Origin: Erythrobasidium yunnanense
Taxonomy: Eukaryota; Basidiomycota; Cystobasidiomycetes; Erythrobasidiales; Erythrobasidiaceae
NCBI GenBank assembly: GCA_001600175.1
Contig: BCJC01000003.1
Coordinates: 1 to 64,000, forward strand
Reading direction: 5' to 3'
Length of the DNA: 64,000 bases
Made by a program: the position numbers and the translations under genes. The notes below the pieces were generated by a model. That model was given only the letters and a program-made list of their open reading frames with translations. It did no database searches and was not told where the DNA came from. Shown here piece after piece: positions 222-56,757 of this stretch. Within the stretch, counting starts at the first letter, position 1; every line of letters starts with the position of its first letter.

Positions 222-3122
222 TAGTACTGACGATGGAATTCGGGCTAATCTCGACGAGCTACTGATATTCTTCCATCTCCTCTCGCTTCTGCATCTCCCG
301 TCCCGAACTGACGTATCACATCTCATTCTACACTCCATTCGCAGCATCTCAGTATCATTCGCAAGCTTCTCGAACCGGATCCCGAAGAGCTATCACTTTC
401 GGGCGATCCGGCATTCTCGGACCTCTGCAGCTGTTCAAAGTGAGTATTTCGGCCAATAGGCGCAAATGATATCGTGTACTGACGTATCTTCGTCTGTTAC
501 AATCAACAGCTAGCCCCAATTCTAGCTTCCAAGGCCGCGCAATTGCGCAGAAATTCCGTCAGTACGCAAAGGCATTACCTCGCGACAGCCAAGAACCGCA
601 TCTGGAACAATTCTACACATGACATGCACCATGCTACGAAGCCCCAAGCCACTCAAACAACATCGCAATTTTCGTGACATGGCCGGCCCTTCGAAAGTAG
701 CTAAATTGCAGAAATCGAGCACTATCGCAACATAATCTACTTCTGGGACGTATCTGGAGGTACTGGTTCGACTCACAGCCCCAGCCGAAAGGATCACTAC
801 ATACAGCGCCGTTATTTCTGTTCTTTTCCTACGCTACGCTCAAGACAGATGCACCAGCGCCCATTCCGCATCGAAGTCATGCTTTCCATCAAGGACAGTG
901 ATCATAAGTATGTCGATCGCGGCGAACAGACGCGATCCTGTACTTTCGCCCTTCTCAGTGTAAAGACAGCACAAATTCCAAAAAGTGCCCGAATTGAACC
1001 AAACTGCGTCTCATGTGACGCATATACATCTTATCTACTAATAATACTAATGCATTTCCCATTCCGAGCACCTTCCTCAGCCAACTTCTATCGGATTTCG
1101 GACACGGACGAAACGGTAGTGTGTAAGTGTAAGCTGCAGGACTGGCTCCATCTTTTATGTATCAAGCTGATGCGACTAGACATTCCAGCAAGGCCTCAGG
1201 CTCATAAGACGGAAGGAACACCTTGTTCCCTTTGCTGGGAGAAACCCTTCATCTACACACAATGCCGCTTCAATGCTACTCTCTCACCATATACCAAACA
1301 ATTTGACACTCCTAATGAAGCTACTGGCGAGCTTATAAGCCAATCAGAAGCAATCAGGATTTTCGTGACATGGCCTCACGAAATTTCGACAAAAAATTTC
1401 GGAATCGATGAGATCGTTGAGCACCAACAACCTCAGGACCTCGCCAAAAGATTCCATACGACTCTCGAGACCAGATTCCTGCGCATGAACACACAGCGCC
1501 CGATTAGCTGATCTTTTCCAGCGTACCTCAGCAGTATCGACCATCCGCAATTTCTCCATGCCCGACATAGATTCAGCATGCCTAACAATGCCCAACACGA
1601 ATCTTGGCAGCCCTATCTATCAAGGCACTGCGTTTTATGCATTAACAGCGCCTGAAGCTACTGGATCCCAGGACCACGCAATATCGTCAGCTGATGTAGG
1701 CAGATGCATCGGACTACTGTACAGAGCTTATGTCCAAGACTCATTTCCTTAATGTTAGCAAAGATGCCCGCAGCGAAATCCCAACAACCGCACCAGAAGG
1801 CGGAAGAATGCATTTCCAGTCAGTCCAACCACTAGCCCGACATCTTCATACCAGCAGATGACCGCATGAATCGCAAGCGCTGCCAAATTGCAGAAGAACA
1901 ATCTTCCCCCAAGCATGCGCGATCAAGCTGCGTTAGATGCAAAAACGCACAAAGCTGCCTCATGCGCGAAACTGAGCGCTTTTAGTCCACTCAGGAAGCA
2001 TAGACCAGGACACACTAAGCCAGCGGGAAGAATGCGCCCATGCTGTGCCCAAATTTACAATCTTTTCGACTGCTGCTCAGCGGCAGCCGCTTAATACGCT
2101 AGAGGAGCGAGTATTACTAACTCAGAATCCCCAACAATGACCATAACCACCGTCTTGAAGTCCCTGCTGATGAGACAGCAAACCAGGTTAGACTGAGCGA
2201 TTAGCGTGCGCCAAGGCCAAAGTCATTCAGATACCCACGCATCCCGGTAATCTGCTCCAGGACAGCATAAGCCATTAGTATGTCATCCAAGCTGATCAAT
2301 ATTAGCATATCGTGTCACTGCAAAAAGTCCGAAAGCAGATAGAAGCCCCTGATTTCTAATAGGGCTGTCTCGTAGGTGTGACAAATGGTCAAGACAGGAC
2401 GAGACTTTAGGTTCTTCAATGCCGATGAGCCAGAACTTGCTGCTGTACTGGTAGAACTCGGCCATAGCGAGCGCTCACAACCAGAGAGACAGATCAGCAG
2501 ACTCGAATACCAGTCGGAGTAGCTGCAGTAGATGCAGAGAGGTGCATCGTGTTGTCGCAGACGCCATCTTCGAGTGTCTTGCCATAAGAAATCAGCTCCG
2601 AAGGCGATCACAGCCAAATGACAGAACGGCTTTCAGGGCACTGATCGAATAAGGCCAATATGGATGGATTGACAATCCAGCAAGATCTGCATAAGTCGTA
2701 TGCCAGAAAAATGTCTGTACGCGCCAAAAAGCCCAAGTCGCCAAAATAGGGGCGGAGAAGAAGTGCTTGTATCTTGTAGGGATTATGGCTTTCGAGGGAA
2801 GCAATGAGCAGGTTGTTGATGCATTATCAGTCAAGCAATAAATGCCAGTCCAGCGAGACCAAGTTCGCGTGCGAAACAGGTCGTCTTCTTGAGCCTCTGC
2901 CGACTTGAAGTTCTCGACGTTCTACCTCCAATAGACACCCCAGCAAGACCTTCATGATGGATTCTTGCCCTTCTGCAGTCGTTTCAACGTCATCCGGATA
3001 CCATCTTTTGGTCGTAAAGCAAGCTACGAGCAGATCTGTAAGAAGTCAGTTACGATGCCTGGAGGTAGCGCAGTCGGGGAAGAACAATTGGAGATGTAGG
3101 AATTGCTCATCAATCCATGCAG
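222..3122. other. Gene-poor subtelomeric stretch
   Basis: No convincing intact gene was found. Only short open frames without family signatures occur, on both strands. There are diverged internal similarities: the block near 641-790 and the block near 1337-1505 share a TTTTCGTGACATGGCC-like core and similar flanking order (a 'cag(c)gcc' end). The sequence looks like decayed, once-duplicated subtelomeric material. Confidence 0.5.
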
Positions 3123-4250
3123 CTCGAATCCTGGCGCTAATTGACTGCATTCACAGGATCTAGCTTTCATGACGGTCTTTCAGCTTGGCGACGTTCAGCA
3201 AGTGCGCATCCACTCAGACTGGCCTCGGATGACGCTGAATATGTATTGTCTCAGCATCCATCAATCCTCGCATGCCTCACAGGCCGCCAACTATCGATCT
3301 CTCATATCTAGTCTTTGCCGGCGATCTTTAGGAAGTGCTAGCATAGAGCGGTATGCAGCAAGTAGGTTCTAACATACACAGATATTGCTTGATTGAGTGC
3401 TAATCCACACTCATAGTCTTCAGACCGTCGTTCGAGCAGGCCGTTGTTTGGGTCTCAACGACTCTGCCTTGGTCCATACTCCCACGACTTAACACTCTTC
3501 CACGAGCACGGTCCAGCTTCCGCTCGCTCATCAACATGACTGGACACGCATTCCATCCACGGACGAGTATCACCGAGCGAAAGAGGCTGCATCCCATCGA
3601 TAGACGAACTGGCAGTAGGATAGTGCGGTATTAGCAAGGCATCGGGCGGGCGCGCCTCGAATACGCTCAAATATGTATGCACTGCCCTTCCAGCAACACC
3701 GCTGCGTTGCCGAGCTATGCTGACATCTCCTTACAGACTTTTTCTGTCATCGAGCTCCGCGCGTTCCTTAGAGGGTCATACGAACAAGACAAGACGGAAC
3801 ATCAAGGTCAATATGGATGGAAGGGACGTCAAGCCATATTGGAGGTATGGAGAAGCTGGCGCCGACAGTGCTTCAGGTAGAAAAGCCATGGCCTGTTTTC
3901 CTGTGAGTAGGCAAGTTCTTCGACTCGCTCTCTATCAATAGCTAAGGGATATCGTACTGGCTGTATTCTCTATGCAGCAATACTGGTCATCACCAAAAGC
4001 CGGCATACAGCTTGTGCAGCTAGCTAGGCTCGTCTAACAGTGAGGCACCCCTTCTGTTTTTCAGTCACAGTGAACTTGCTCAGCGAAGCAGCTGGCACAT
4101 CTCGATGTTGCTTGGCAGCATCTAACATCCTGGAAAGGCTCGTTGTGCCAATCTATGGCTCATTCGCTTCAAGCTAGTACTCGCACCCCGCTGGCACAGG
4201 TGCGTTGCATACAAAAGAGACGCTCGGATATTTGGAGATGTAAGTAGATA
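3085..4250 (+). pseudogene. Tandem relic copy 1 of a multi-exon gene
   Basis: This block and the next (about 4231-5395) are diverged tandem copies of one ~1.15-kb unit. Three introns keep their borders in both: a first one ending ...GACTGCATT(C/T)ACAG, a second opening GTAGGTTCT and ending CTTCAG after a TGCTAATCC branch-like motif, and a third opening GTATGCA(C/T)TG and ending (T/C)TACAG after GCTGACATCT. The exon after intron 1 reads DLAFMTVFQLGDVQQV here. The later exon is out of register with copy 2 around 3785, and I could not assemble an open protein. The family is unrecognised; short stretches recall the paralogues at 54.2-56.8 kb. Confidence 0.55.
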
Positions 4251-5395
4251 CTACTTACTCTATATATTCTGAGTCCTGGCGCCGACTGACTGCATTTACA
4301 GGATTTATTCTACATAACGGTTTTCAAGCTCGGCGACCTTCAGCAAGTGCGCAACACCTCAGACTGGCCTCGGATGACACTGAATATGTATTGTCGCAGT
4401 ATCAATCCATCCTCGCATACATCACAGCCCGAGAACTATTGATCCCTCCTATCTAGTCTTCGCGGGCGATCTTGGGGAAGAGCTACCATGAAGCGATGTG
4501 CTGCAAGTAGGTTCTAGCATACACAGATCTTGCTGGACTGAGTGCTAATCCACTCTCAATATCTTCAGACAGTTATTCGAGCAAGGCATTGTTTGATCTC
4601 GACGGTTCCGCCTGACCTATACTCCCACGACTCTACCCTCTTCCACGAGCACGGCCTAGCTTCCTCTCCCTTACCAATATGACTGGACACACCATCCATC
4701 CACGCACGAGCGACAACGAGCGAGAGAGGCTGCATCTCTTCGATAGACGAACTGGCAGTAGGATAGTACGGTATTAGCAAGGCATCCGGCGGGCGCACCT
4801 CGAATACGTTCAAACATGTATGCATTGCTCTTCCAGCAACAACGCTGCGATGTCGAGCTATGCTGACATCTCTCTACAGACTTTCTCTATCATGGATCTC
4901 CGGGCATTCTTCAGCAAGTTATACGAGCAAGTCACGACAAGAACCCGCTCTATCTTCAAGATCAACTTGGATGGAACGACAGTCAAGCCATTCTGGTGGT
5001 ATAGAGAAGCTGGCGCCGACACAGCTTGAGGCAGGAAAGACTTGGGCTTTTTTTTGCTGTGAGTTGGCATTTCCTTCAAATGGCTTTCTATCAATAGCTC
5101 AGGGCTTCCATACTGACTGGATATCCTATGCAGCAATACTGGTCATCATCAAAGACCTGTCTGTAGCTCGTGCGGCTACCTAGGCTCGGTTAAGGGTGAG
5201 ACGCCCCTTTTGTTTTCCATAGCGAAGACTTGTTCAGCAAAGCAGCTGACACTTCTCTGTGTTCCTTGACAGGGTCTATCATACTGGCAAGACTTGTTAA
5301 GCCAGTCTCGCGCTCGTTCTCTTCATACTACGTCTGGCGTCCTGCTGGCATATGTGCGTTTCATACAGGATAGACGTGCGAAATTAGCGGAACAG
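4251..5395 (+). pseudogene. Tandem relic copy 2 of the same multi-exon gene
   Basis: Second copy of the unit described for 3085-4250, with the same intron borders. Its exons read DLFYITVFKLGDLQQV after intron 1 and, after intron 3, AFFSKLYEQVTTRTRSIFKI followed by NLDGTTVKPFWW, ending in TGA near 5029. The middle exon is interrupted in every frame I tried. Differences between the copies in the last exon fall mainly in first and second codon positions, which fits either decay or fast protein change. Similarity continues beyond the exons to about 5390, so the whole locus was duplicated. Confidence 0.55.
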
Positions 5396-21076: not shown

Positions 21077-22185
21077 GATGACAAGTGATCAGGTTGATGG
21101 TAGCGCGAAAGAGAAGGCAAGGTCGAACAGAAGATGATCTGTTCAGAGCCCGGCACTCACTTCTTCCGGTGCGGCCCGTCTGGAAAGGTTCTGCTTGTTG
21201 TTCGAGCACGCAGACACGCGCAAGCTCTACTGATCGTGCTTTCGGAGAGCAGGAGTCGCAGTGTTGTATAGGGAGCTGAATTGCAAGCAGCAAGAAGAAC
21301 TAACTCTACACGTGACGAGAGAAATAACACCGGCTTGCCCAAAGCTTTCTACACCATACACTACAAGTGCCCTTGGTCTGAGTGTGCATGCCATTGCTGT
21401 TGTCTCTTGTGGACGATATGCGACTCAGTATAGCAAGAGCTACATATGAGCTGCTGTTTTCGGTTGCTTTCACAGCGAAGCTATCAGCAGTTGGTCTGAA
21501 GCCAATCTGCCTTACTCCAGCGGTTCATGTACAGTGAGCAGTGTGGGCATGTCTTTATGAGCCGCAGAGCATATCTGTAGGCAGACATGCAGTATAGCAG
21601 ACTGATCAATACAGCAGGGATACTGGGGTCCCAGTTGAGAATGAATGTGGATAAAGATGAGTTGTTAGGGCAATATAGGCAATGCCCATAGTGTAGATCT
21701 GTCTTGATCATACTGCAGTATCTCGGTGGGATGGCAGATTAGAAGAGAGGATCCGAGGCAGGCAGAACGGTCAGGGTATAGTTAAGCTATCTCAGGCAGG
21801 TATGATTAGCTTTGTTCTTGAGCGTAAGCCAGGTCAGGTGAACAAGGAGAGCTGCGTGAACGCTTGAAGAGGACTGCCAGAGTGCAGCAGCTCGCTGAGA
21901 GCGTTCTATGAGTAAGATCATAATAGCAGTATCTCGTTGTGTATACAGCCTCCAGGCAGTTTGGTCTGTTTGTGTTGTGCAGATCCAAGCGATTTTCGGG
22001 CCCTTCTCCGTCGAAAAAAAGTCCAAGTCTTCCAAAAGAGTTTGCGGGTGTCTTCTGCGCAGAGAGGTCTCAAGTCGCAAAAAGGTGAGGAGCGACGTAC
22101 AAGTACCATTGAAGAGAGTATAGTCGGCTCACTGCTGGTGCCCCCTGCTTTCTGCGCTTCCAGATAGCGAGTCCATCCAGCCGAG
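21077..22185. promoter_or_regulatory. 1.1-kb divergent intergenic region
   Basis: Lies between the thiolase start (minus) and the Stm1-like start (plus), so it must hold both promoters. No gene with a recognisable domain was found on either strand; the open frames are under 105 codons and lack family features. No clear TATA box or repeated operator stands out. Confidence 0.45.
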
Positions 22186-23539
22186 ATGGCATCGAGGAAT
22201 CCCTTTGCGTTGCTTTCAGGTGAGTTAGGGGTAGCATGGGATAAGATGGAGTAAGAGTAGTATAAGCTGATGGTATATGTGTCTACTCTCCGCAGACGAC
22301 CAAGATGCTTCCGACAACGAGCAGCAGACTCTCCCGAAGGTGACTAAACCTACCACCGTCGATGCAGCACCCAAGAACAACAAGCCTGCAAGAACCAACC
22401 CCATTCCAGGTGCAACCACAAGACGCAGCGTCCCAGGACAGACCAACACCCGCCCGCAGAAGGAGGTCAACGAGCTACCTGCTTCAGATGCACCAGCTGG
22501 GGACAAGGCCCAGTTTGAGGGAGAGCGAGGCAGAGATACCAGAGGTGCATACAACAAGACATACAAGACTATATCAAGCGTACAGGTCCCCTAACATCTG
22601 GCAATTCTGCTTCTTCTTCCCGCAGGTACCGGATTCGGACGAGGACGAGGTGGTGCAAGAGGTGCTCGAGGAGGAGCCGACAGACCTCCCAGAGGTGACA
22701 GAACAGAGGGAGGACGTGGAGGCAGACCTCCTCGTGCTGCTAGACCCGACAGACACTCCCAGACCGGCAAAGTGTGCGTTCCGAAGAAGTCGAGAAATTT
22801 CACCAGAAGACTTGATGACTGACTTCTCTCTCTTCTGGCTACAGCGACTCCGACAAGACTGAGCACCAAGGATGGGGTGGAGATGATGGCAAGCGCGAGC
22901 TAGAGAACGAGCAGGCTGGTGTCACCGACGCCGCCGCCGAGAAGGGCACAGAAACCCCAGTTGGCGAGACCGCCGACGCTGCTGCTGCACCTGCCGAGAA
23001 GGCACCAGAGGTCCCTGCTGAGCCAGAGGATACCTCCAAGACATACGAAGAGTTCCTCAAGGAACGCAAGACTGCTGGACGAGGAGTTCTCGACGGTCTA
23101 TCGACACAGGCACGAAAGGCAAACGAAGGTGCTGATGACAGCCAATGGAAGGATGGTGTAGCTATCAGCAAGGACAGCGAGGATTCTGGCTACTTTGCCG
23201 ACCTGCAGAAGGTTAGTCGCTAGTCTCCGCTTGTGAAGTATATTCTGCACAGCAGCTAATTTATCACTGCTCTTTTTACAGGACAAGGCATCCAAGGCAC
23301 GCAAAGAGCGCAAGGAGAAGACCTTCCTCGAGGTCGAGTTTCAAGCTCCTGCCAGACCTGGCTCAGACAGAGAGGGTGGCCGAGGAGGACGAGGTGGTCG
23401 CGGCGGTAGAGGACGTGGAGAGGGTGCACCACGAGGACGTGGATCTGCTGGCAGAGGCGGACGAGGTCGTGGAACGAGCGCTGCCCAATCCAACGGCATC
23501 AACCTATCCGACGACACCGCCTTCCCTACCTTGGCGTAA
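22186..23539 (+). CDS. STM1: Stm1/HABP4-SERBP1-type ribosome- and RNA-binding protein
   Basis: Ribosome-associated protein of the family that protects idle 80S ribosomes. About 350 residues in five exons. It starts MASRNPFALLS, a typical family opening, followed by a disordered basic region. Two RGG blocks bracket the core: GTGFGRGRGGARGARGG in exon 3 and REGGRGGRGGRGGRGRGEG in the last exon. The central HABP4 region includes KTYEEFLKERKTAGRGVLDG and DSEDSGYFADLQKDKASKAR, and the protein ends NLSDDTAFPTLA. Yeast Stm1 lacks the extended C-terminal RGG block, so it is closer to the SERBP1 layout. Arginine methylation of the RGG blocks is expected from family knowledge, not shown here. Confidence 0.88.
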
Positions 23540-24131
23540 GTCGCAAGAATCTGGCACGGAAACGACATTCGGCAGCGAGACAGCTTCGATACTATCCGAA
23601 GAGTCAAGACGGCTCTTTCCCCTTTCTTTAGGCAACTTTCGTACTCTTGCAGCTTCACAGTCAAAGCATCGGCATCACCTCCTCTTTACTTACTCTTCCT
23701 AGCTTGCCTTGATTCTGCGGTCGTATATGTCGCTGTGTGCTCGTTTGATCGTATCCACCATTTTCTACAAAACGCGTAAGATTAGACCTGTACGCAATAC
23801 AAACATATGGTCCCCTATACAGCTCAATCTTGCATGTCGCGATTGTCTGGACTGCGAAGCCAATGTATCTTTTCAACTTCCGCTGACGGCCTTGCTGCAG
23901 CTTGAGAGCCACGACTTTGTTATGGGCCCAGCTCTGTCGCTACAAGTAGGACCAAACCAGTCGTGTGAAAGGCGTCAGTAAGCCTTGGACAGTGTCAAGA
24001 CAGCCCGAGCAGCGAGATCGATCATCAGAGGCGTATGCGAATTATCATTGGCGCTCGTGACGTCCCTAGGTGTTTAACCCGCGAGAAGTCTAGTCTACAT
24101 GTACACTTGTTGCTTCCGCAGTTCTTCTGTC
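23540..24131. other. Convergent intergenic region
   Basis: 592 bp between two convergent stop codons. It probably holds both 3' untranslated regions. I see no gene, RNA or repeat in it. Confidence 0.5.
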
Positions 24132-24728
24132 CTAGTCTGTTGCTGGCAAGCTTGTTGAGGCCGGGATCTGGAGACCACAGTATCTCGTCAGCATTCGTAG
24201 TAGCGGGAAGGCAGGTTGAGTGTCGCAAGCGAGTATACCTTGAAGTACTCCCATTGACCAGGCTCAGGCTTCGTCTTGAGGTCTTCCCATCTGCGAGGAG
24301 AGCATCAGCTTCTGGCAAGTCTGGGACGAGCTGAGAATTACTCACGGTTTCCATTGCGCCATCTTTGCGACCAGACTCTGCTCATCCTCTGCCATCTTTA
24401 CTATCTCCTCGATGATGCCCAGGTTGAGCTCCTTCTCGATGGCCTGAATCGCACCCTCTCCTCCCTGATTGGCATCTGCTCCCGCATGTTTCTGAACGAC
24501 TTGCAGCCTGTGCTGTGTGATGGCTTCTGCAGACTGTCTGTAGACGACTCCTTGAGGTATCTGGCTCGATAGCGACGAAAGCGTGGATTTGTATGTTTCC
24601 AGCAGCGCTGGCAGAGGGTTGGGATGGACAGGCAGACCAGTCAGGCCAGTAGTAAGCTTGCTGCCTCTCCTTGACGCAGAGTATGGGTTCAGCTGCTGCC
24701 CTCCGAGGCGTAATAGAGATGTTCGCAT
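24132..24728 (-). CDS. NDUFA5: Complex I subunit NDUFA5-type (29.9 kDa)
   Basis: Accessory subunit of the matrix arm of mitochondrial NADH:ubiquinone oxidoreductase. About 165 residues, three exons. The presequence-like start MRTSLLRLGGQQLNPYSASR precedes the family core: TTGLTGLPVHPNPLPALLET, then GVVYRQSAEAITQHRLQVVQ, IEKELNLGIIEEIVKMAEDE and QSLVAKMAQWKPWEDLKT. Length and order match the ETC_C1_NDUFA5 family. The 5' part (about 24503-24728) is duplicated at 26060-26286, beyond the neighbouring HNH gene. The original arrangement was probably NDUFA11-type then NDUFA5-type, about 60 bp apart on the same strand. Confidence 0.9.
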
Positions 24729-24903
24729 GATTGTAGTTGGAAAAGACGAGGCCTCGCTTTGCTCGCGATAGAAAGGCAAGTACAAGTTATTGCCGACAGA
24801 AAGTCTACTGTTCTAAAACATCGCTATCTCCTAGAACCTTGTCTGCTCAGCTGTCTGTTCCTGTGATACCTGTTTCCTGCTGATCAAGAGCTAATTCTGT
24901 ATC
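24503..24903. repeat. Direct repeat copy A flanking the HNH gene
   Basis: About 400 bp that aligns in the same orientation with 26060-26443, starting at GCAGCCTGTGCTG and ending at ATTCTGTATC. By eye the best-matching 160 bp are close to 90% identical; the remainder is weaker, with small gaps. Copy A contains the intact 5' part of NDUFA5, the ~60-bp spacer, and a broken copy of the NDUFA11 3' end (about 24790-24903) that now encodes the HNH protein's tail. Confidence 0.85.
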
Positions 24904-26025
24904 AACGCGAAATGACGGGGGCGCGTGTGCAGCCATTGCATTTTGCACATCTGCGATTGTATCTTCTGCAGAAATGCGATGAGAGAACCCGCGGAAGTGC
25001 ATTTGGACACACTGCTTGTAGTGCCATAGAAGCATTTTACGGTTTGGCACTGCCTCCGGATAGAAAGTGAAACCGAATCGATTGTAGGGGATACGTTTGC
25101 CATGCAAATCACGCTCGCCTTGGTCGGCGGGCTTGAAGTAGTGAACTACGTATTCAGTCTCCTGCGTTGTCAAAGGCGGTTCAGCCCGCCTGCCAACACC
25201 CATCGCGTTCTGCTTGCCGGCTCCTCACCAGAGGTAGTAAAGCCCAGTCATATCTATCAAAAGCGAAATGTAAATCGTGTCTGAGGAATAGACCCATGCG
25301 TGCTTGATAATGGTTGACTACAGGTTTCCCGAGAATCCGGGCGTAAAGCTGCAAACATAAAATACGTTAGACGAGCTTGCAGGTAGAGGTAGTGCACTGC
25401 CTACGTCTTTGCGACTTAGAGGGACTATGTGTGCCGCTACACACCTCGAGGCAGGAGCTCCTGTCAATAGACATGCGGTATCACGCACAGCGACGTCAAA
25501 GCGAAAGGTTTTCTGCGCACGTTATCAGACGAGGATAAGTAATAGACTAGGGCACATACTTGGCCGGCTGAGGATCGCGTTGAACTGGCTCGGGAGGAAG
25601 CCTCCTCTGTATCATCGAACCCAGGAGCCCTGCCCATCCGGGGAGACTCTGGCCCTCTGGTATATGTGCAGCCCATTGCGGCATCATCTACAAAAGTACC
25701 AAGTCCCATTCATGTCAAAACCAATTGTAATTACGAAAAGTGCAATGTTCGACTTACCTGTTCTCACGTATGTGTAGGACCCTGAGCTTACTTCAGTATC
25801 TTCTGAGATGCGATTACCCTGCGGATCTGTCAGAAACCCATCGTTCTCGACGCAATCGCTGATCGCGGTGTAGATGTATGTCCAGGTATTTGCGAGAGCC
25901 ACAATCATGAAGCGGAGAGGTATAGTAGCAATATGATTGCCTTTGACATCTCGTATTTCGATATCCCCTTGTCCCTCCCAATAGTCAGCTGCTGTCGTTC
26001 CGTATGTGACGATATTGCTGCTCAT
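24847..26025 (-). CDS. HNH_2-type nuclease-domain protein inserted between complex I genes
   Basis: About 300 residues, five exons, apparently intact. It starts MSSNIVTYGTTAADYWEGQG. The HNH_2 domain is in exons 3-5: TACLLTGAPASRCVAAHIVP, with the first His in AAHIVPL, then MGLFLRHDLHFAFDRYDW, with the last His. The central Asn usual in this fold (often RNG) is replaced, here RMG. Such proteins are common and of mostly unknown role in basidiomycetes. The last ~18 codons (DTELALDQQETGITGTDS) and the stop lie in a duplicated copy of the NDUFA11 tail, so that end was recruited from a neighbour. The 5' flank is a duplicate of the NDUFA11-NDUFA5 junction, which may supply the promoter. Confidence 0.8.
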
Positions 26026-26059
26026 GGCCAGGGTCGCAGTCGTAGGAATTGAGAAGTGT

Positions 26060-26286
26060 GCAGCCTGTGCTGCGTGATAGCGTCTGCAGACTGTCTGTAG
26101 ACAACTCCTCGAGGTATCTGGCTCGAGAGCGACGAAAGCGTGGATTTGTCTGTCTCCAGCAGCGCAGGCAGAGGGTTGAGGTGGACCGGCAGGCCAGTTA
26201 GGCCAGTAGTGAGCTTGTTGCCTCGTCTTGGTGTGTCTCAAGGGTTCATCTGCTGCCGCTCAATGCGCAAACAAGGATGTTGGCAT
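26060..26286 (-). pseudogene. Truncated 5' copy of the NDUFA5-type gene
   Basis: On the minus strand this stretch still reads much of the NDUFA5 N-terminal half, for example LPALLETDKSTLSSLSSQIP, then GVVYRQSADAITQHRL. It then loses similarity shortly before the HNH start. It lacks the rest of the gene. The start-codon position (about 26284-26286) is kept. It is a by-product of the duplication around the HNH gene. Confidence 0.75.
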
Positions 26287-26443
26287 GGCCTCCGGTTGGA
26301 GTCTTGAACAGGAGAAGGGGCAAGTAAGTTCATTGCCGACATGAAATCTATTGTTCTACAACATCGCTATCTCCTAGAACCTGGTCTGCTAACGGTCTGT
26401 TCTTGAAGAATTGCCTGCGTTGCGCTGCTCGAGATTCTGTATC
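26060..26443. repeat. Direct repeat copy B flanking the HNH gene
   Basis: Partner of 24503-24903. It contains the real 3' end of the NDUFA11-type gene, the ~60-bp spacer and a truncated 5' piece of NDUFA5. It begins 35 bp upstream of the HNH start codon, so it is also the HNH gene's upstream region. Confidence 0.85.
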
Positions 26444-27287
26444 TAGACTCTGTCGACCGTCTCCGGAAAGTGAGCGACCTGCTGCATCAAACGTGCCTAT
26501 AATGGTCGCAAGTACCTACGAAGTACAGAAAACATGAGCATGACAGTGTAGAGTGAATATAAGATGGGACCTTACTGCACATCCACCAAATGCTGATGGT
26601 AGCGATCCACTCCGCAGGCCCATCAGGAAGCCAGCTGCACATCCGCCGCTGCATGGAGATAGAGTAGTACCGTACGTTAGCCACGGTGAATTGCTATCAT
26701 TAAGACCGGCCGCTCTTGACGCACGCAGCTCCGTTTATCGCATCGTCTTTGCCCTTCATATTGGCCAGAGTGTGGTCGACATAGGTGAAGGTTGCTGCCA
26801 TTCCAGCTAGAGATTACATCCAGATAGTTGCATTAGTTCCCAACATCGAGCGCTCCAGGTGGGCGGCATACCGAAGAGTCCAATGGTTCCGCCTGTCCGA
26901 GTAAAGACTCCCATCGCACCGGATTTGTGCTAGAAGGGAACCAGTATACGTTAGTAGAAGATCCTATTCATGTTGAGGCTGTAGTTGAGGCTTGGTTGCA
27001 CCTTTTGAAGGGAGTTCTGCACGCTAGAAACGAGCAATCCTACGCCGGCCTGGACAAGCGCATTCAGCCAGCGTTGCGATGTGATGGTGCCATTAGATGC
27101 GTACTCCTTGTAGACCAGTGTTGAAAGCTGCTGCAATAGGCGCCTAATCGATATTCCAGCATCAGCTCGCCTGCCCTTCTTTCTCTTTCTCTCCCTCAAG
27201 TTGCTGCACCTTTTCAGAGTATGTAGAGTCGGCCGTCTGATTTCTTGCGCCCGTCGCTGGAGCGCCAGGCCCATCTGCCGTAGCCAT
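26348..27287 (-). CDS. NDUFA11: Complex I membrane-arm subunit NDUFA11-type (21.3 kDa)
   Basis: Tim17-family four-helix accessory subunit of complex I in the inner mitochondrial membrane. About 190 residues, with six short introns. Spliced, it reads APIAAAFNTGLQGAGVGLLV, then SSVQNSLQKHKSGAMGVFTR, GTIGLFAGMAATFTYVDHTL, ANMKGKDDAINGAAGGCAAG and FLMGLRSGSLPSAFGGCA, ending RRQFFKNRPLADQ...VVEQ. The GAMGVFTR-GGTIGLF core and the RR-FF-K tail match fungal NUO21.3b. The start at 27287 gives a short polar N-terminus (MATADGPGAPATGARNQTAD) and no cleavable presequence, as expected. Its last ~100 bp are duplicated at 24790-24903. Confidence 0.85.
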
Positions 27288-27699
27288 CTTGAAGTGAGTC
27301 GCTGGGGTGAAACGAATGGAGACAAGAGGCTCAAGCCGTGAGGTCCTTTACAAGCACTGGGTCTGATGCAACCAGCACATGCATGACACTTCATAGCAGA
27401 TATGCAAGGACTAGCTTTAAGCATTCTTCACACGTCCGCTCATGTTCTTTCTCTATCAACCACCTGCTCTCCTATCTTTACAAGACAAGCCAGATACATA
27501 GAAGATCGAAAGACTAGCTACATTATTTACTTACTATGAGGACATGCTATTTACTAAGTCAACGGAGATGGTAAAGCCCTATTAAAGCCCTACTAACGAC
27601 ATCGTATTTCCCAACAGCTCCACACTGCCTTCATCGTGCCTGCAAAGCTGTGTTGCAGCCCTGTAATTGTCTCGATTCCTCTCAATATGAGACGAGCTC
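27288..27699. other. Intergenic region
   Basis: 412 bp between the complex I gene (whose promoter it must contain) and the Medusa stop codon. No gene or repeat seen. Confidence 0.45.
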
Positions 27700-30600
27700 T
27701 CAATAGCTTGCCATCTGAGGCGGCGGACCCATCCTCTGAGCCTCCATGAATGGCGTCTCGGCAGGTTGTCCAGGGCCAGTTTGCGCATTCGGAGTAGTGT
27801 CGTCTTCCTCTCTTTCCATGTTGGCTATCATGCCGGCTTCTTGAACAGTTGCATCTGCCGGTAGAGCCGCGCCCGAAGCTGGTCCAGCTAAGAATTCTTG
27901 CTCGGGTGCCTCTACTATCGAGTACTGGCTGCTCAGGCTGTGCGAATGACTGTGGTTCCCGGTTGATAGCCTTGAACTGGCACCAGAGGAAGCTGTGGGC
28001 GTATACGCCATCTGTGAGGATTGCGGACTAGATGGCTCGCTTCGGTACGTATAGGCTGAAGCTTGCGAAACCTGATTACGCGGCACACTCGTTTGAACAT
28101 GTGGAGTCGTAGCTGCTGATGGTTCACCAGGCACCCATCCTATTGGTTGTACTAGCCTTCCCGAAGCAGACATCTCGTCTGGAGGGACATAGGCTGCCGA
28201 GTATTTGCTGATGATCTTGCGCAGAGCAGGTCCAAGGATCTTCCACGGGAAGACCTTGACGTCCTTCTCGATATTGCGCGGCTTGGGGTTCTGCACATTC
28301 AGAGGATCAGCACCGTACCAAGCACAGGAATACTTAATACGCACAGGAAAGCTCATGATAAGCTTGAAGAACGGTTCGCTGTCCGCCTTCGCTTTCGAGA
28401 TTGTGATTGGCTTGAAGCCTTCTAAATTCCTTCTAATCCGATTCTTCTCTTCGACCGTGAAGCGCACAGCTACTAGCGCTTCCAGGAGATAGATAGTATC
28501 CACACTCGTGACGAAGCATTCATTCTTATCCTCTCTGAATATACAGGAGATGACGATCGATGACGAGTTGATCTCTTGTAGCGATACCGGCCGGAAATTC
28601 GCAATGATCTGGTTACCTTGCTGCCTCCGCCAAAATTGGACAAGACGGCGCTTGACGAGCCACTCGTCGTGCGACCAACCCAGTGCCATAAGATTAAGGT
28701 CGCTCTCGAAATGTAAAGAAGCCTTGTTCTCCAAGCTTGCGTAAGAGCTTGAGCCGGTCGTATGAGGAGAAGTGACAGCCGTTGCAGGAGGCGATACGAC
28801 CTCTTCAGGCGCAGAACCAGATGCAGCTCCAGCTGCCGTTCCCTCTGACACTCCGGCTGAAATTTGCGTAGTGCGGTACAGAGTAGGCGCTCCAGTAGAC
28901 GTGGCTTCTATGGGCGGATGGCGAAGAGAAGAAGACGAGATAGTATATGACGGCACGGACGGGTGCGTTCTCATTCGAGCTATTGGCTTGCGCTCCACTG
29001 CTTCGCCTTCGGGCGTGTTGATCCACATGCCGCTATTACTGCTGTCCATACTGTTACCCGTACCAGGTGGAGGACCAGCTTCTGCATCGCTTATACTGGC
29101 TAGCGAAGATGTTCGAGAATGATGCGTCATGTCGCTGAACCCATTGACGAGCGAACCTATGCTTGAGCCGCGGGAGTGCTGGCGCTGAGCCTGAGTAGTG
29201 AGCACATTCAGCTGAAGTCGAGGAAGTTAATGACGGAGAGAGAGCTTACATCCCCATCGGGTCCGAATGTGGGCCGTGTCGTTGAGCTTGGCGAGTCTCG
29301 CATGCTAGACAGCGGTGACCCAGGCCGTTTCTGGCTGATCTTAGGAAGGGAAGTAGACAGAGGTTGAACAGGAGAGTTCGAGTCTGACAAGCAATAGAAA
29401 ACGAGGTATCAGCCACCCACGTATCATTTATTGCCAAATCACGGAACGCAGCGCGCTCACCTTCATACTCGAAATACCCAAGCTCAGCAGAGTCCGCGAC
29501 TCCGCCGTATTCGTCCAACGCCTGCAATACTAGCTGCACAACCCTACTTCTTCCATTGGTCATCTCACCACTACCTTCCACTGCAGCCATAGAAGGCGGG
29601 ACAGTCGCATGTCTATTCGCGAGCTGGAAACTCGGTGTAGAAGCTACTAACTCGACTCGTTCCGCACCATCAGAGAAACGCTGTTCTCCAACTACGCGTG
29701 TAGTAGTGCCATGCGAGCCGTACATTACTCTGAACCCTCGAATTAGGTGCGGTTGATGTGGCACAATCCCTATTGAGAGCGAGACGGGCGTAGCTACAGT
29801 TCCTGTCTTCGGATGACAGGTGTAGACGTGCATTATGCCTTGTACGGAACTTGAGAGGACGCCGTTGTTGCTGTTGTTGGTGGGTGGACCGGGATGAGGA
29901 AAGGAATGCGAAGATGAGGCTGCTGACATCAACATTGAAGAGGGACGTGATTGTGGAGGGTGATATGCTGGATCAGACGGGTGGTGTGCGTGTCCATGCT
30001 GTTGTTGCTGTGGTGCTGAAGAAGGGTAAGTGGGAGGAAGGGCATATGGCTGCTGTGGTTGAACAGGCGGCTGCTGCGGGTGTGCTGTCGGTGGCAGCGC
30101 TTGTGGATGTGGTTGGCCTTGTTGTTGATATTCAGGATGCGCTTGGTAGCTGACTTGAGAGGGCAGCGGCGGCGGAGGGTGATGGGAAGATGCTGATAAT
30201 GTCCTTGCATGCGTATTATGACTCGCTATCTGATCGAAGCTCGCTTGTTTCCGATGCGATAGGCTGAACGAAGAAGAGGAAGCAGGCGGAGGTTCTGAGA
30301 CCAATGATGATGTCGATGAGTTGTAGGAATGAGAAGCATAGGGTTGGGCAGGTCCATGCTGCTGAGGATAAGGCTCGTGCTGTGATATTGAAGGAAGTCT
30401 CTGGCCATTGTGTGTGCTGTTCGAAGGAGGTGGGGGACCATAAGCTTGCTGGGCTTCGGTTGAAGCCAGCGGCGGTGGATAGTACGAAGACGAAGGAGGG
30501 TACGATGAAGTTGAGGAAGAAGATAGCTGATGATGGTGAGGTTGTTGACCTTGTCTACTATTATACGCGTATGCGTGCTGGGCATCCGCAGTGACGGGTC

Positions 30601-53971: not shown

Positions 53972-54241
53972 AAGGGCATTGGGTCCTCCTGCATAACCAC
54001 CATTTCGGGGCCTACAGAGTACCTCCTCTCGCAAGGAGCCTCCTCTCTACTTGCGAGAGACTGGGTTCACATCCCGTACGATCTGGACCCTTTGTCATGG
54101 GCTCCTTGTCTGATACCGTTGTCTCTACTGACCAAGGAGTATTGCTGAGCTGCTTTTCTGTTGCAGCAAGCGGAGAGCTGCTCTACTCTGACTGACGCTC
54201 ATCAGAGTCAGACTAAGGACGCGCTAGCTAAAGCCGAAATA

Positions 54242-55381
54242 ATGAGTACCTACGAGTCAGACATCAAGAAGTATGAACTGGAGAGGCAAATTTCAGATGC
54301 CAGCAGTTACAGATCAACCGCCAAAAGTACGCGCAAGTCAAGTGAAGACAGCAACAGCAGCATAGCATCTGCTAGGTCTGCTAAGAGCGATGTTTCGAGG
54401 TACTCTTCGGCATCCTTCATGAGCCCCTCCGGCGAGCTGCTGCCATCAAGACACACAGTGGACGGTACTCCTAAACCTGTGTTACGTCGTACATGTACAG
54501 ATCTACAGGACGATGCTGGCCTGGAACCTCTTGTTCTGGAATGGAATCGTGCGATCAACGCAACGCTTCGACGGATTTCACCGGTGGAAGTCTCCATCTA
54601 TAATCGATATGTCGCAGATGGTATCGGATCGCATTTCAAGACAGGCGATTTGGCCAACAGATACGCTACCTTCTTGCGGCAGCCACCAGCGCATTTCATG
54701 ATTGACTTCAATGTCAAAACCAGTAAGGGCCTCTTGCACCGAAGTGTGCGCCTCTCACATTGCAGTGTGGTCTCCAATCATGGAGACCCGGTACTCGGGC
54801 TCCTCAGCCGTATGCAGGCAGGACTTGAGGACTCCGCAGATGGCTACGCTATCCCTTTCCCTGCAAGATGTACACTCTCCAAAGCCTTCTTCGACCATGG
54901 TCTGAGGGAGAAGCGCGCCTCATCAGGCACTTTACAGGTCAACCTCGCCGTCGCGGATCCCACGAAAACGGTGAAGAGGGCGCATCTGGGAGGCATGCAC
55001 TATCCTTTTGGAGTTACTGAAGAGCAGCGCCGAGCTTTCGTGAAGGATTACTGGTATATCAAAGCGCTCTTGCCGACGGCGAAGAATGGCCGCACGAACA
55101 CTCCAACGACCGTATACCTCTCCAAGCTAGAACATCGAGATGCCTTTCCAGATGTACTAAAGGTGAAAGCTACCGAGGGGGACATCCAAAAGTGGCTCGG
55201 GCCAAAAGATCCTTCAGGCAGCTATCTCATCAATTTCGAGGTCAACGATATTCAGATGAATATGCTCGGAGAGATCATCAGTGCGAAGCTGAGGCGAGTC
55301 AGCGGCCCCTTCGTACCGGTGCTGGCATGCGATATGCAGGCTGCCCAGCCTGTCAAGAAGACAGGAAGATTCAGGAGATGA
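54242..55381 (+). CDS. Unrecognised intronless protein, tandem paralogue 1
   Basis: 379 residues with no intron, unlike almost all neighbours. The first ~60 residues are Ser-rich with a phosphosite-like motif ELERQISDASSYRSTAKSTR. Conserved with the next gene: VLRRTCTDL, GLEPLVLEWNR, then RLSHCSVVSNHGDPVLGLLS, RMQAGLEDSADGYAI, HGLREKRASSGTLQVN and NMLGEIISAKLRRVSGPFVP, plus a basic tail. No signal peptide, membrane segment or known catalytic motif. I do not recognise the family. Short stretches resemble the decayed subtelomeric copies at 3.1-5.4 kb. The start at 54242 lines up with the paralogue's start. Confidence 0.8.
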   Translation: MSTYESDIKKYELERQISDASSYRSTAKSTRKSSEDSNSSIASARSAKSDVSRYSSASFMSPSGELLPSRHTVDGTPKPVLRRTCTDLQDDAGLEPLVLEWNRAINATLRRISPVEVSIYNRYVADGIGSHFKTGDLANRYATFLRQPPAHFMIDFNVKTSKGLLHRSVRLSHCSVVSNHGDPVLGLLSRMQAGLEDSADGYAIPFPARCTLSKAFFDHGLREKRASSGTLQVNLAVADPTKTVKRAHLGGMHYPFGVTEEQRRAFVKDYWYIKALLPTAKNGRTNTPTTVYLSKLEHRDAFPDVLKVKATEGDIQKWLGPKDPSGSYLINFEVNDIQMNMLGEIISAKLRRVSGPFVPVLACDMQAAQPVKKTGRFRR

Positions 55382-55635
55382 TGGCTTTTAGTCTCGTCGA
55401 GCAACTCGATATAATCTTTTTTGCACGTCCTTTTAGAGATGATGACTGACTTCAGCTTCTTCAGACTATCCGAGGGGAGATGACCCTTGTCCTGCACTGG
55501 AACAAAGGCGCAGATATCCCTCTTTGCTTCTTCCTTTCTTTAATGAGTCCCGCTGTTCCACTATCTTGTTGCTGAGGCTGGCTCTGATACTACCTCTCCA
55601 GAATACAAACCAACGTGCACGTCCAAGTAGCAGAA

Positions 55636-56757
55636 ATGAGCGACTACCAATCAGAGATCAAGAAGCCTATCCTGGATCGACAGTATTCAGATGCCAGCAG
55701 TTACAAATCGACCTCAAGGAACTCACGCAAGGCGAGTGTTGCGAGCGCCAACAGTCAAGCGTCAGCACGAAGCGACATCTCCAAGTATTCATCAGCCTCC
55801 TTCGTTGATTCGAATGGCCAACTCATTCCCTCGCAACACCAGAAAGATGGTGGCCTTAAGCATGTCCTTCGTCGGACATACACCGATCTGGATCGAGATC
55901 CTGGTCTGGAACCCTTGATTGTCAAGTCGAATCGCCTCTATAACGTACAGCTGAGATACATAACATCGGAGGAACGTGCAATTTATGACGAATACACCAT
56001 CAACGGCATTTCATCGCACTATCAAGATGGCAATCTGACGACTATGCATGCTCAATCTATGCGTCTTCCTTCCTCAGAGTTTATGATTGCTTTCAAAGTC
56101 AAAACTGGAAAGGGCTTCATAGATCGTGCACTGCGCCTATCTCACTGCGGCATAGCCTCCGGGCATGCGACTCCTGTTATAAACGTGCTCAGCCGCATGC
56201 AAGCTGGACTGAAGGATTCCGAGCCAGGCCATACAATTCGCTTTCCGGCAGGGTGTCTCTTTTCCCGGGCTGACTTTCCCCATGGTATAAGAGAGAAACG
56301 TGCGACTGCTGGAACACTAGAAGTCAATCCCCATTTCGTTGATCCCCGACGCAAGACCATCAAAAGCGTAGCTTGTGAGTATATTCGTACGCCTGCGGTC
56401 CAGGGCGAAGGCGCGGCCCGCATACAGGCTATAGATTTGAATTGGGCAGTACAGGTGTACATCCTACGCCAGGACAGTCCAATCCACGGTCACTTGGATA
56501 TTCCGTTCTCGAAGCTGGATCACGCATCTGCCTTTCCGGACCGTCTGAAGGCGAAGGGCACCCAACAAGATATCGCCAAGTGGCTTAGAAGGAGCGAAGC
56601 TGGTGTCTTTACTGTCACGGACATCAAGCTCAATATGCTCGGCGGAATCGTCAGTGCAAAGCTGAACCGTGTCACGGAACCTTTCGTTCCAGTGCTGGAG
56701 GCAGATGTCCCACCTGCTGGGCCCAGTGTTAAGAAGTCGAGAGGGTGGAGAAAGTGA
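55636..56757 (+). CDS. Unrecognised intronless protein, tandem paralogue 2
   Basis: 373 residues, single exon, 254 bp after paralogue 1 and collinear with it along its whole length. Shared features: LDRQYSDASSYKSTSRNSRK near the start, VLRRTYTDLDRDPGLEPLIV, EFMIAFKVKTGKGFIDRALR, LSHCGIASGHATPVINVLSR, MQAGLKDSEPGHTIRFPAGC, HGIREKRATAGTLEVN and LNMLGGIVSAKLNRVTEPFV. It has an extra stretch relative to its neighbour near residue 255-275. The conserved aromatic, Cys and Pro positions across roughly 45-50% identity by eye argue for a folded domain under constraint. Function unknown. Confidence 0.8.
   Translation: MSDYQSEIKKPILDRQYSDASSYKSTSRNSRKASVASANSQASARSDISKYSSASFVDSNGQLIPSQHQKDGGLKHVLRRTYTDLDRDPGLEPLIVKSNRLYNVQLRYITSEERAIYDEYTINGISSHYQDGNLTTMHAQSMRLPSSEFMIAFKVKTGKGFIDRALRLSHCGIASGHATPVINVLSRMQAGLKDSEPGHTIRFPAGCLFSRADFPHGIREKRATAGTLEVNPHFVDPRRKTIKSVACEYIRTPAVQGEGAARIQAIDLNWAVQVYILRQDSPIHGHLDIPFSKLDHASAFPDRLKAKGTQQDIAKWLRRSEAGVFTVTDIKLNMLGGIVSAKLNRVTEPFVPVLEADVPPAGPSVKKSRGWRK

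Follow-up and report, generated by a model that had tools for sequence, protein, structure and literature searches.

A gene for an HNH_2 nuclease lies between two complex I genes in the window studied here (the whole 64-kb stretch of DNA that was analysed), which contains no N bases and, judged from its gene content, looks like nuclear-type fungal DNA with short introns. On the minus strand, NDUFA11 is followed by one copy of the NDUFA11–NDUFA5 junction (copy B), the HNH_2 gene, a second copy of the junction (copy A) and NDUFA5:

26348..27287, minus strand: NDUFA11-type complex I subunit (B14.7/NUJM), intact, 7 exons (in-frame splice model)
26059..26443, minus strand: junction copy B, with the working NDUFA11 tail, a 61-bp spacer and a dead NDUFA5 5' fragment (alignment, three-frame reading, codon comparison)
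24847..26025, minus strand: HNH_2 nuclease gene, 5 exons, 312 aa (splice model, Pfam HNH_2)
24502..24903, minus strand: junction copy A, with a dead NDUFA11 tail into which the HNH C-terminus extends, a 76-bp spacer and the working NDUFA5 start (alignment, region distances)
24188..24728, minus strand: NDUFA5 (B13) complex I subunit, intact (Pfam and PDB matches, splicing, frames)

The first-pass annotation had described an HNH gene between complex I genes with direct repeats of about 390 bp on either side. This arrangement is confirmed, with copy A spanning 402 bp and copy B 385 bp, aligned with a score of 409 (the best of 200 base-shuffles reached 44). Each repeat had been read as the end of NDUFA11, a spacer of about 60 bp and the start of NDUFA5, with one host gene kept whole per copy. 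This also holds: the spacer is 61 bp in B and 76 bp in A, NDUFA11 reads through B (27287-26348), and NDUFA5 reads through A (from 24728).

Both host genes are readily recognized. NDUFA11 has an open frame from 27287 to 26348 once its six GT-AG introns are removed, and the last of its seven exons enters repeat B. An approximate, hand-joined query for this protein matched the B14.7/NUJM chains of complex I in the PDB (best E 1.3e-12) and scored 21.6 bits against Pfam Tim17, under the cut-off of 32.7. In a two-exon reading, NDUFA5 has its first exon at 24728-24346, an intron at 24345-24291 and its stop at 24188; there may be a further intron close to the gene end. Its product matches Pfam ETC_C1_NDUFA5 (E 1e-22) and the B13/NUFM subunits of complex I in the PDB (best E 1.5e-18). 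At 44993-44895, tblastn gave a weak hit to residues 17-54 of NDUFA5 (39% over 38 residues, E 0.011), probably due to chance.

The insert between the two repeats (26058-24904) is 1155 bp long, and since the HNH coding span fills nearly the whole of it, the insert is almost pure CDS. The five exons (26025-25758, 25687-25560, 25512-25405, 25348-25229 and 25161-24847) are separated by four in-frame GT-AG introns of 47–70 bp. Residues 146-205 of the HNH protein match positions 1-65 of the 66 in the Pfam HNH_2 profile (PF13391), with 35.3 bits against a cut-off of 21 (E 1e-8). This was the sole Pfam match up to E 1, with no intein or zinc finger; NCBIfam yielded nothing up to E 1, and PDB sequences gave five uninformative matches (best E 0.25). 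There are two candidate catalytic His residues, within AAHIVP and DLHFAFD. At what we take to be the position of the middle Asn in the HNH motif, the protein seems to have Met instead.

The final 18 codons and the stop of the HNH frame (24903-24847) lie inside the weak outer part of repeat A. Because the frame thus ends within the copied NDUFA11 tail, some of the HNH C-terminus may derive from NDUFA11 sequence. After the HNH stop, the sequence carries on in the NDUFA11 frame. At the other end of the gene, short reading frames begin upstream at two positions, 26286 and 26249, and expression may be driven by the copied NDUFA5 promoter.

A retrocopy origin of the HNH gene is ruled out by its four introns; the gene must have arrived as DNA. 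No inverted repeats of at least 30 nt, and thus no transposon-type terminal inverted repeats of that length, were found in 22000-29000. A tblastn search of the window up to E 1 for other copies or remnants of the HNH gene returned, besides the gene itself, a single match (E 0.93). The possibility that the gene first lay downstream of NDUFA5 and was then shifted by tandem duplication was rejected, as no HNH remnant is found there. While the HNH frame has no disabling change, the NDUFA5 fragment in B has picked up two within roughly 225 nt; at that rate, the chance of finding none in the 936 nt of the HNH frame is 0.017. Since the HNH gene has stayed intact while B decays, it has probably been maintained through selection or recent homing.

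Over their whole length, copies A (24502-24903) and B (26059-26443) share 310 identities, with 69 mismatches and 29 gap columns (310/379 ungapped). The strong core of the repeat covers 24502-24863 and 26059-26405 (blastn E 1.5e-74). Towards NDUFA11, the outermost 40 bp match weakly: the anchored score was reached by 1 of 500 shuffles and the free local score by 6 of 500. Beyond the opposite end of the repeat, 11 of 500 shuffles attained the free local score of 21, which came from an out-of-register match. The outer 40 bp therefore rely on the anchored test. The NDUFA5 part of B is broken in the presequence by a 1-bp frameshift and an in-frame stop, while codons 20-75 are open; it stops after codon 75, 33 bp ahead of the HNH start codon. 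The NDUFA11 tail in A, for its part, is without the RRQFFKN stretch that is encoded in B. A 59-bp block around the NDUFA11 stop (24789-24847 in A, 26332-26390 in B) is 90% identical between the copies, with far more diverged flanks, and is possibly a signal or recognition site.

How did the two copies diverge? The differences between them are unevenly spread, with 18 in the 172 positions of the mature NDUFA5 block, 16 in the 59 of the spacer (plus 19 gap columns) and 20 in the 55 of the presequence (Fisher P against the mature block, 0.005 for the spacer and 4e-5 for the presequence). In the mature block (codons 20-75, n = 56), 13 differences are synonymous and five nonsynonymous, and 13 of the 18 sit at third codon positions. 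The resulting dS of 0.35 and dN of 0.04 (dN/dS 0.12) refer to these mature codons, the presequence having been kept out of the count because of the frameshift. In presequence codons 5-19 (n = 15), nine codons alter the residue or introduce a stop, two are silent, and four are identical. Targeting presequences are generally weakly conserved. The contrast in divergence between presequence and mature block argues that selection acted on both copies. When the entire NDUFA5 fragment is counted, with the presequence, there are about as many silent as changing codons, and these totals alone would also suit a local duplication.

Of the two copies, B is the one that departs from residues kept in orthologues: the five nonsynonymous differences include P→L, Y→D and E→D in B where the top three PDB orthologues listed retain P, Y and E. 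This identifies B as the decaying copy. In A, the outer NDUFA11 tail has 12 mismatches and 9 gap columns in 59 columns, a divergence at the level of the spacer, whereas the last 43 bp of the same tail, though noncoding there now, differ at only three positions (3/43 against 16/59 in the spacer, P 0.01). Taken together, the sequences of copies A and B seem to have diverged as working genes that met later, and the NDUFA5 part of B seems to have died late. The meeting would then reflect either homing out of a diverged allele or an earlier tandem duplication.

A precedent for homing of this kind is provided by the WHO elements, a rare type of selfish homing element from a few yeasts, which Coughlan et al. 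(2020, PMC7282813) described from the FBA1 locus of Torulaspora and Lachancea. The WHO nuclease cuts a sensitive allele of the host gene, and repair imports the nuclease gene together with a resistant, diverged end of the host gene, leaving the old end behind as a fragment; two alleles of the WHO locus had 85% identity in the replaced end (PMC7282813). By analogy, the free-standing HNH nuclease gene could be a homing element with the mode of action of the WHO elements in yeast. This is the explanation we prefer, if tentatively and at somewhat less than even chances.

To account for the observed anatomy, with its intact genes, repeat and codon pattern, the homing model would take the mobile unit to be the HNH gene plus the adjoining copy of the junction. 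The nuclease would cut or nick the NDUFA11–NDUFA5 junction on an element-free chromosome, and repair from the element-bearing chromosome would bring in the HNH gene along with a diverged, presumably cut-resistant junction. From the direction of replacement that we infer, the incoming junction would most likely be copy A, with the NDUFA5 start, and the old native junction of the recipient would stay behind as copy B, its NDUFA11 end working and its NDUFA5 start dead. Both host genes would thereby remain whole after homing. In addition, the duplicated junction could give the HNH gene a promoter (from NDUFA5) and a 3' end (from NDUFA11). The outer NDUFA11 tail of A, gapped and as diverged as the spacer, fits with A carrying it as old baggage. 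On the other hand, the homing model does not predict the near-identity of the last 43 bp of that tail, and the presequence changes, where the nonsynonymous excess goes the other way, also count against it. The model is drawn from one locus in one 64-kb window.

In so far as the WHO elements are described in the available text, the two systems share a free-standing nuclease gene that adjoins a whole, functional host gene and a diverged fragment of a host gene. The divergence between copies is strong in both, with 85% identity at WHO and 150 of 168 coding bases identical here. In the WHO10 elements of Torulaspora globosa, two of the five insertions described carry a duplicated host-gene end and leave the host gene unbroken, as here (PMC7282813). 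These WHO10 insertions are reported as 2.8–6.6 kb long with an FBA1 fragment, and some with fragments of other genes, whereas the insert here is 1155 bp and nearly CDS-only (PMC7282813). From the same text, the WHO nuclease is intein-derived with zinc fingers, in contrast to the HNH_2 protein, and WHO elements replace the 3' ends of host genes, whereas the affected end of NDUFA5 is the 5' end; the dead piece of NDUFA11 at this locus, a 3' tail, lies across the HNH gene from the dead NDUFA5 fragment. Unlike in the WHO loci described there, the repeat covers two genes and a spacer, and the cluster of older copies is not seen. Because the nuclease family and the affected gene end differ, the locus is not classed as a member of WHO; a WHO-like reading with an HNH_2 nuclease is nonetheless the best reading.

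A second likeness is to the mob genes of T-even phages, which spread by intronless homing and in which a free-standing HNH gene sits between two conserved genes, as here (PMC2988022, as far as its available text goes). According to the same partial text, several of the HNH homing genes of T-even phages are promoter-less cassettes that rely on upstream promoters (PMC2988022). These genes are phage-borne, and the available part of that account makes no mention of a duplicated junction (PMC2988022).

Among the alternatives to homing, an older tandem duplication of NDUFA11–NDUFA5 is the main rival; it is rather unlikely, although it accounts equally well for the coding-type divergence. Both copies would have worked for a time, and the HNH gene, a mere passenger, would later have replaced the middle, taking out the 3' part of one NDUFA5 copy together with the 5' part of an NDUFA11 copy. 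Tandem duplications are present elsewhere in the window (3088-5385; ORFs 54161/55615), and the junction repeat could therefore be older than, and unrelated to, the HNH gene. However, this history takes extra steps, with an insertion as well as the deletion of most of two genes, and the ends of the deletion must happen to spare one whole copy of each gene. Moreover, the HNH interval is without remains of the lost gene halves, and blastn and tblastn searches of the rest of the window returned weak matches only, the best being that to NDUFA5 at 44993-44895 (E 0.011).

Could the repeat instead have been made on the spot? A one-time ectopic insertion of the HNH gene, in which several hundred bases of the target were duplicated on site (for example, by fill-in after staggered nicks) and then diverged, is unlikely on the evidence of the codons. 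It does offer the simplest anatomy, with both genes kept and an insert that is almost CDS-only, and the near-equal numbers of silent and changing codons over the whole NDUFA5 fragment are as it would lead one to expect. Nick-induced segmental duplication has also been reported for Cas9 nickases (PMC11406185).

In this scenario, however, B would have been free of selection from its birth, with A still constrained. Simulated on these terms, about 10 of the 18 mature differences are expected to be nonsynonymous; five were observed, and five or fewer arose with P 0.001–0.020 over 16 settings and in 0.2–1.7% of simulations in six others. When the spacer, the synonymous sites or both were used as neutral yardsticks, about 18 nonsynonymous differences were expected (P 0.001–0.0034, including yardstick error), and B was estimated to have been unconstrained over some 12% of the path that separates the copies, figures that come from small samples and, for the spacer, from a gapped alignment. 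The mature part of the freed fragment is thus short of nonsynonymous changes by both measures, and it is also much less diverged than the spacer and the presequence. Constraint on B as a promoter or leader of the HNH gene could partially mimic the pattern, yet would not by itself give a bias to third positions. The first-pass annotation had proposed HNH insertion with local duplication of the target; of this, the HNH gene between duplicated junctions and the intact host genes stand, whereas duplication on the spot is disfavoured by the five nonsynonymous against 13 synonymous differences.

A local duplication of any origin, followed by gene conversion that kept the coding part of NDUFA5 similar, would explain why divergence is uneven along the repeat, but it is very unlikely, since conversion alone leaves the position of 13 of the 18 differences at third codon positions unexplained. 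A misassembly that fused two haplotypes is highly improbable: heterozygosity is conceivable in a fungus with two nuclei, and the locus is known from assembled sequence alone, but the window has no N bases, the HNH gene is single-copy within it, and the coding divergence is high for alleles within one species.

Does WHO-like homing by an HNH_2 nuclease extend beyond this locus? It is conceivable, if doubtful, that the HNH_2 genes of fungi include a nuclear homing class that carries part of a gene junction, diverged and cut-resistant, and swaps it in at every homing event. Such a class would have reached a WHO-like strategy independently with an unrelated nuclease, and at the present locus, the two-gene junction would also supply a promoter and a 3' end. 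If true, the HNH-based case would make the carrying of a replacement piece of an essential gene a more general route by which nuclease genes spread while sparing the host, and it would give HNH_2 genes in fungi a possible role. Among the matches listed in a literature search (titles and the starts of abstracts), there was no report of a free-standing homing gene of the HNH type in the nuclear genome of a fungus. Searches for the locus or its proteins found no relative in viral contigs, bacterial and archaeal genomes or plasmid DNA, nor, by protein, in phages, all of them non-fungal collections that are silent on the distribution among fungi.

Besides the junction repeat, comparison of the window with itself revealed one longer tandem repeat, picked up at 3126-5376, and two short matches between neighbouring ORFs. 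The former is a head-to-tail duplication with an exact junction, consisting of copies of 1.15 kb each (3088-4232 and 4232-5385) that share 908 identities, with 230 mismatches and 23 gap columns. The latter involve the plus-strand ORFs 54161-55381 and 55615-56757, neither of which matched Pfam at E 0.1. These ORFs have two short similar stretches and similar starts, and are likely a tandem pair.
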